Of a stretch of 64,000 bases of DNA, positions 60,368-61,574 are shown one piece after another. The DNA lies in the NCBI GenBank assembly GCA_030130125.1, contig JARZZM010000013.1:124001-188000 (forward strand). The letters run 5' to 3'. The stretch is from Thermoproteota archaeon (lineage in GTDB: Archaea > Korarchaeota > Korarchaeia > Korarchaeales > Korarchaeaceae). How positions within the stretch are numbered: the stretch's first letter is position 1; the number at the start of each line of letters is the position of its first letter. The notes beneath the pieces were generated by a model that searched no databases, had not been told where the DNA came from, and saw only the letters and a program-made list of their open reading frames with translations. Position numbers and translations under genes: made by a program.

Positions 60368-60883
60368 TCAGCCACCCGCTGGGGTTCCCATTATAACAAC
60401 AACGGGGCCGGGAGAGGAAATTAAGGCATCCACTTGCTTCAATCCTTTTAGCAGAAAAGTATTGGCTGCCCTGTAGGTTCCATACCTATCATTTCCCGCC
60501 ACGACGACCACGGGTTTCCTTCCAGGGCCTCTCTTGACGAAGTAGTAAGCGTAGTTCTTCCTTTCAAGCTTACTCTTCTCCTCAGGGGACAGAAGAGAGG
60601 AAGATATCTGGCCTATCCCCTCCGGAGCCTTGTGCCCGCCCAACACTATGACGAACTGACCGTATTCCAGCGCCTCGCTGTATTCCTGTGGGGAGAAGAT
60701 CCTCACCCCGAACCCCATGGCCTCCAGTACGGACCTCATTCTCTCAGCAGTGGGCATATCGATCGAGTTGGAGACTATAGCTACGGGTCCCGTGAGAGAA
60801 GAAGCTTGGATCAGTGTTAAGGACTGAGCTAAGAGGATTGCGAGGGTCATGAGGGTCATAAATGCGAGGAGGTTTCTCATCAT
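60368..60883 (-). CDS. Secreted cell-wall-binding-like domain protein
   Basis: A 171-residue protein with signal peptide (LLAFMTLMTLAILLAQSLTLIQA) and one Rossmann-like domain: PVAIVSNSIDMPTAERMRSVLEAMG, FVIVLGGHKAPEGIGQISSSLLS, KPVVVVAGNDRYGTYRAANTFLL. The last segment is common in archaeal S-layer-associated proteins. The domain is shared with the larger protein at 40918-42018. It probably sits in or near the S-layer. Confidence 0.7.
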   Translation of the reverse strand: MMRNLLAFMTLMTLAILLAQSLTLIQASSLTGPVAIVSNSIDMPTAERMRSVLEAMGFGVRIFSPQEYSEALEYGQFVIVLGGHKAPEGIGQISSSLLSPEEKSKLERKNYAYYFVKRGPGRKPVVVVAGNDRYGTYRAANTFLLKGLKQVDALISSPGPVVVIMGTPAGG

Positions 60884-60987
60884 TGATGAGAGCTGGGGAG
60901 CCCTATTAAAGGTTTACCTGTCGTTCGCTTTTATTACAATCGACAGATCCTCCAGAAAACGTTAAATGTCCTCCTCGGGAGTCGAAT

Positions 60988-61051
60988 GGGCCGATGATGA
61001 TAATTCCTTAAACCAACTCAAGATGAGGTCTGACGGGCGGACTGAAGGCCC
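60988..61051 (+). ncRNA. C/D box sRNA predicted to guide 2'-O-methylation of 16S rRNA C1402
   Basis: A 64-base element in a 246-base gap. Terminal stem: GGGCC 60988-60992 pairs with GGCCC 61047-61051. Box C is ATGATGA 60994-61000 and box D is CTGA 61042-61045, placed directly inside the stem as in a kink-turn. Box C' is probably ATGAGG 61023-61028 and D' a weak CTCA 61017-61020. The D guide (61031-61041, ending GACGGGCGGA) is complementary to CCGCCCGUC of the universal 16S 3' region (E. coli 1399-1407). The fifth guide base before box D pairs with C1402, so the N+5 rule puts the methyl group there. The D' guide (61001-61016) I could not assign. Confidence 0.75.
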
Positions 61052-61129: not shown

Positions 61130-61574
61130 GTGAGGAGGAAGGATCTGGAAGAGATAGAAGAAATCTTGAGGAGGGCATTTGATTGCAGAATAGCGCTATA
61201 CTAAGACGACAGATCCATTTGCGTTACCCATGATATACTGCTACAAGGAGGGCGCTATATACCTCCACTCTGCCAAGGAGGGAAAGAAGCTTGAAGTGTT
61301 GAAGAAGAATAACAGGATATGCTTCGAGGTGGAGATGGATGCCGGGTTGGTCACGGAAGGGAGACCCTGTTCTTGGACCTTAAGATACAGGAGCGTCGTG
61401 GGGAGGGGGAAGGGTTACGTAGTTGATGATCTGAACGAGAAGAGGAAAGCCTCGGAATGCATGGTGGAGAGGTTTGCGCCCGGCTACAAGTACCAGTTCA
61501 CTGAAGAAGGGCTGGTTAGTGTCGTCGTAATAAGGATAGAAGTGGATGAGTTGAGTGGTAAGAAATCCGAATGA
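61130..61574 (+). pseudogene. NimA-like (PNP oxidase-fold) flavin-binding protein broken by one frameshift
   Basis: The first part, from GTG 61130, reads RRKDLEEIEEILRRAFDCRIALY and stops at TAA 61202-61204. Skipping the T at 61202 removes the stop and gives KTTDPFALPMIYCYKEGAIY in one frame that continues to 61574: LHSAKEGKKLEVLKK, NRICFEVEMDAGLV, PCSWTLRYRSVVGRGKG. This is the pyridoxamine-phosphate-oxidase-like family that includes NimA flavoproteins. The remaining intact open frame (61230-61574, 114 residues) lacks the N-terminal strand. A single-base insertion or a sequencing error fully explains it. Confidence 0.75.

Follow-up and report, generated by a model that had tools for sequence, protein, structure and literature searches.

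The window, a 64,000-nucleotide stretch of a 1.52-Mb archaeal draft genome, contains a C/D box sRNA gene in a gap of 346 bp that is flanked by a minus-strand ORF at 60368-60883 and, on the plus strand, by a pyridoxamine phosphate oxidase-like ORF at 61230-61574. No ORF of at least 60 aa in the ORF list overlaps the sRNA, and the window, when scanned for additional C/D sRNAs, yielded only 60988-61051. The features of the locus are:

60955..60967, + strand: BRE/TATA-like promoter element GAAAACGTTAAAT, ~23 nt upstream of the stem
60988-61051, + strand: C/D box sRNA gene, assigned from sequence and conservation
60988..60992, + strand: terminal stem, 5′ half GGGCC; GGCC is invariant in 15 sequences
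60994..61000, + strand: box C AUGAUGA, near-invariant in the 15-copy alignment
61001..61012, + strand: D′ guide UAAUUCCUUAAA, complementary to 16S 911-922; AUUCCUU is invariant in 15 sequences
61013..61016, + strand: box D′ CCAA, degenerate, its register uncertain by one base
61023..61029, + strand: box C′ AUGAGGU, degenerate, with UG..G conserved
61031..61040, + strand: D guide UGACGGGCGG, pairing with 16S 1399-1408; G61037 faces C1402
61042..61045, + strand: box D CUGA, invariant in the 15-copy alignment
61047..61051, + strand: terminal stem, 3′ half GGCCC, from the sequence and from pairing counts in relatives

Read 5′ to 3′, the RNA is laid out as GGGCC-G-AUGAUGA-UAAUUCCUUAAA-CCAA-CUCAAG-AUGAGGU-C-UGACGGGCGG-A-CUGA-A-GGCCC, where the loop CUCAAG separates the D′ from the C′ box and a single unpaired base on each side (G60993 and A61046) lies between the boxes and a perfect 5-bp terminal stem. 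Two hallmarks of archaeal C/D box sRNAs are thus present, namely a RUGAUGA box C and a CUGA box D beside a terminal stem, and a ~10-nt rRNA-complementary guide 5′ of box D with the target base at the fifth guide position.

Conservation of the sRNA and its upstream region

Comparison of a 161-bp region with related genomes (BLAST) gave 15 matches, the distant relatives matching across the sRNA alone. The columns without variation in an alignment of these 15 copies are those of the stem GGCC, of most of box C, of AUUCCUU in the D′ guide, of the D guide and of box D. Outward pairing of the terminal stem extends over 4-6 bp in all 13 copies checked; its pairs were counted by hand in 13 of the 15 sequences, since MAFFT places the 3′ half of the stem one column off wherever box D is not followed by an extra base. 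The original prediction of a C/D sRNA enclosed by a perfect 5-bp stem therefore holds, with the stem both seen in the sequence and conserved in relatives. A sequence model built from the 15 copies finds the sRNA in 22 of our 26 sampled genomes of the class (G000-G025), with E < 1e-9 in 21 of the 22. The class is most likely Korarchaeia, and NCBI assigns Korarchaeum to the Thermoproteota. The four genomes in which the model found no copy are three that are 63-71% complete and G012, a 99% complete genome of the same genus in which neither the model nor a pattern search located the sRNA. The 16S of G012 (L027) has both of the target sites described below even though no sRNA copy was found there.

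At least 12 of the sRNA loci share one upstream neighbour gene, which makes the copies orthologous. In the window this neighbour is the divergently oriented ORF of 171 aa at 60368-60883, for which no Pfam match was found. The 15 aligned upstream regions also have in common an A/T-rich block resembling BRE + TATA (AAACGTTAAAT) at a fixed -39 to -28 from box C, its best columns carrying ~0.8-1.3 bits against ~0.2 in the surroundings, and this fixed distance suggests that the sRNA has its own promoter.

The single-sequence fold is no better than that of shuffled sequences (z = -0.41), an uninformative result that is expected for a C/D sRNA, and searches of Rfam returned no match at gathering scores and generic C/D matches only up to E = 10. 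Both observations would suit a fortuitous C/D-like sequence or a relic that is no longer transcribed, and yet the orthologous position, the promoter element and the guide covariation (see below) are all conserved, and the chance hits look different, as the bacterial matches among those listed have neither a C′ box nor a terminal stem. We consider such an origin hardly credible, conservation being the ground on which a fortuitous C/D-like sequence was rejected. Because shuffled guides often equal the score of the real guide against the rRNA operon, complementarity within a single genome is weak evidence, and the case for the sRNA is built on conservation, covariation and layout and not on per-genome complementarity scores. 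Together these data describe a real and well conserved sRNA whose function, as read from sequence, is very probable.

The D guide and position C1402 of 16S rRNA

The D guide UGACGGGCGG pairs with CCGCCCGUCA, which corresponds to E. coli 16S 1399-1408, over 9-10 bp, and within it GACGGGCGG is the exact complement of 1399-1407. Counted upstream from box D, the fifth base is G61037, which lies opposite C1402, and under the N+5 rule this register makes G61037 the base that selects C1402. The target was read from the 16S of relatives, the window assembly's own 16S ending before C1402 at the contig end, and the sequence CCGCCCGUC is present in all ten class genomes whose 16S reaches the site; in the sRNA copies, likewise, the guide base five positions before box D is a G that faces C1402. 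Both the complementarity to the decoding site and the assignment to C1402 that had been proposed for this guide are borne out by these relatives.

Across archaea, changes of the target at position 1405 are met by changes in the guide. All four genomes with A1405 (G047, G128, G232 and G283; 16S CCGCCCAUC or a close variant) carry a guide U at the facing position (GAUGGGCG(G/A)), while genomes with G1405 carry a guide C (GACGGGCGG) in at least 11 cases and a guide U, forming a wobble pair, in 3 (Fisher p = 0.011 over 18 genomes, without correction for ancestry). The D guide very probably directs 2′-O-methylation of C1402, by what would be the ordinary C/D-guided mechanism.

Fibrillarin is encoded in all five genomes tested, the window's own included (PF01269 in G000, E = 9.5e-88). 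Models for RsmI (TIGR00096) and RsmH (PF01795) found neither enzyme in any of five class genomes tested, so no known bacterial-type protein enzyme accounts for a mark at C1402 in them. The bacterial enzymes also methylate C1402, but they are proteins working without a guide RNA, and their product is m4Cm and not Cm, RsmI adding the 2′-O-methyl and RsmH the N4-methyl group according to PMC5053481. The earlier suggestion that this archaeon may make the same mark as bacteria would thus apply to the ribose methyl only, as a C/D RNP can match the ribose half alone of the bacterial m4Cm.

An RNA-guided route to this residue, which was also suggested, fits the guide but is not new for archaea. In P. 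abyssi 16S a Cm1376 has been mapped that is equivalent to E. coli m4Cm1402, yeast Cm1639 and human Cm1703 (PMC7005279), a site listed under a different numbering as Cm1369 in PMC11542601, where AtU43 is the Arabidopsis guide. Archaeal sR12 was predicted to guide methylation of the C1402 equivalent (Gaspin 2000, cited in PMC3511168), and AtU43, U43 and snR70 are the eukaryotic guides for the same residue (PMC3511168, PMC11542601); the statements of PMC3511168 on this site leave open whether the archaeal and eukaryotic guides are homologous. The idea of RNA-guided Cm1402 is therefore already established in archaea and eukaryotes. Compared by D target and by model, sR12 (RF01147; Pyrococcus, Sulfolobus) has the same predicted target (the equivalent of yeast Cm1639, PMC3511168), but RF01147 is not among the models that the window sRNA matches up to E = 10, and among the other loci this model gave sub-threshold matches only, for L196 and L198. 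SNORD43/snR70/AtU43 (clan CL00059) likewise place a Cm at this residue (human Cm1703, yeast Cm1639, Arabidopsis Cm1645), and the CL00059 covariance models also do not match the window sRNA.

The D′ guide and 16S 911-922

The original prediction left the second guide without a target and proposed a search of the genome's own 16S and 23S rRNA and tRNAs with it. A search run on the rRNA operon stretches of relatives gives a well-supported site at 16S 911-922 (UU(A/G)AAGGAAUUG), which is the best D′ site in the complete operon stretches of three genomes (G009, G001 and G011) and also the best within the part that was searched in G013 and in G019. The duplex comprises 8-12 bp. Opposite position 913 the guide has U where the 16S has A (G009, G011) and C where it has G (G013, G019, G022, G023), while the window's own clade has an A opposite G913 and hence a mismatch.

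It is conceivable that the D guide acts on C1402 while the D′ guide is directed at some other target (a tRNA, an mRNA or an unsampled rRNA) or at none. The short duplex, the frequency with which shuffled guides score alike in a single genome, and G022, in whose searched stretch 911-922 is outscored by two further sites, would all agree with this. However, AUUCCUU is invariant in 15 species, 911-922 is the top site in the five genomes just named, and the base facing 913 matches its partner in six, and we regard another D′ target, or none, as unlikely.

With 911-922 as the D′ site, the predicted target base is A915 if the D′ box is read as CCAA and A914 if it is read one base later. In bacterial 16S, positions 912-915 are the region of streptomycin resistance, which lies near the decoding centre. 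The function of the D′ guide is less certain than that of the D guide, because its boxes are degenerate and the end of the guide is able to pair with C′ in several relatives. Box D′ reads CUGA in G003, G016, G020 and G025. In L187 (G025), L188 (G016) and L021 (G019), box C′ and the 3′ end of the D′ guide are able to pair as a hairpin, which in G025 is CCUUCAC/GUGAAGG. This potential arises because the 16S target is itself C′-box-like, and in these relatives the internal pairing could compete with the 16S target.

Distribution of C1402 guides and a model for the sRNA

A strict 22-base pattern (C′ spacing, GAYGGGCGG, N, CUGA) was searched for in a sample of 394 archaeal genomes and occurs in 43, of which 20 belong to the class and 23 come from ~17 other families, while the reversed pattern used as a control had no match in the same sample. 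The full C/D layout was inspected in some of the 43, and the match in G246 looks doubtful. Phage records gave no match to the sRNA region. At least six Aciduliprofundum/DHVE2 loci (L041, L056, L074, L102, L105 and L196) have a C1402 guide with the D guide GACGGGCGG, the box D register and the C′-to-guide spacing of the window sRNA, but their D′ guide, UUCAGCCUU, is complementary to 16S 900-908 and not to 911-922. In G118 (L200) this D′ guide for 900-908 has a change that fits the genome's own 16S (AAGACUGAA with UUCAGUCUU). C1402 guides with a common D guide and differing D′ guides are, by their sequences, found in many archaeal families. Outside the phylum, L190 (G139) has a near-identical D′ guide (AAUUCCUUUA) and a D guide that differs by a single change (GACAGGCGG), which mismatches its own 16S at 1404.

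Our overall reading, which we hold with high confidence, is of a stand-alone C/D sRNA gene whose D guide would lead to Cm1402 and whose D′ guide would address 16S 911-922. The sRNA would be transcribed from its own archaeal promoter, and its terminal stem and boxes C and D would fold into a kink-turn and so recruit L7Ae, Nop5 and fibrillarin. Pairing of the D guide with 16S 1399-1408 would then let fibrillarin 2′-O-methylate C1402 in the P-site/decoding region, and pairing of the D′ guide with 911-922 would probably direct a methyl group to A915 (or A914) or, failing that, hold the strand. As the two target sites are neighbours in the 30S neck/decoding region, the sRNA may double as a folding clamp during assembly.

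Taken further, the RNA might be made and bind both 16S sites yet serve mainly as an assembly chaperone, with methylation weak or absent at one or both sites, most plausibly that of the D′ guide. The degenerate D′/C′ boxes, the G913-A mismatch in the window's own clade, the meeting of both targets in the neck/decoding region and the D′ guides to nearby 900-908 carried by other C1402 guides are all compatible with such a role. A pure clamp, however, would need none of the features that are kept exactly here, that is box C, box D, the stem and the C1402 register, and the equivalent residue is methylated in P. abyssi (PMC7005279), so that a role mainly as a chaperone appears improbable to us, and guided methylation of C1402 remains our preferred reading.

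The novelty of the sRNA is modest and consists of a family member without an Rfam match, a second target, and C1402 guides with unrelated D′ guides across many archaeal families. It would extend RNA-guided C1402 modification to an archaeal class that is deep and has hardly been cultured, and it assigns the second guide to a neighbouring site in the decoding region. The spread of C1402 guides with different partners also provides material on whether sR12 and U43/snR70 stem from common ancestry or convergence, the question that the statements of PMC3511168 on this site leave open. As a tentative idea, which we think somewhat doubtful, a C1402 guide may go back to the common ancestor of archaea, the D guide being kept and the D′ guide swapped by lineage, and be a true homologue of U43/snR70. 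If so, this SSU 2′-O-methyl group would be common to the three domains, placed by RNA guides throughout the line of archaea and eukaryotes and by protein enzymes in bacteria.
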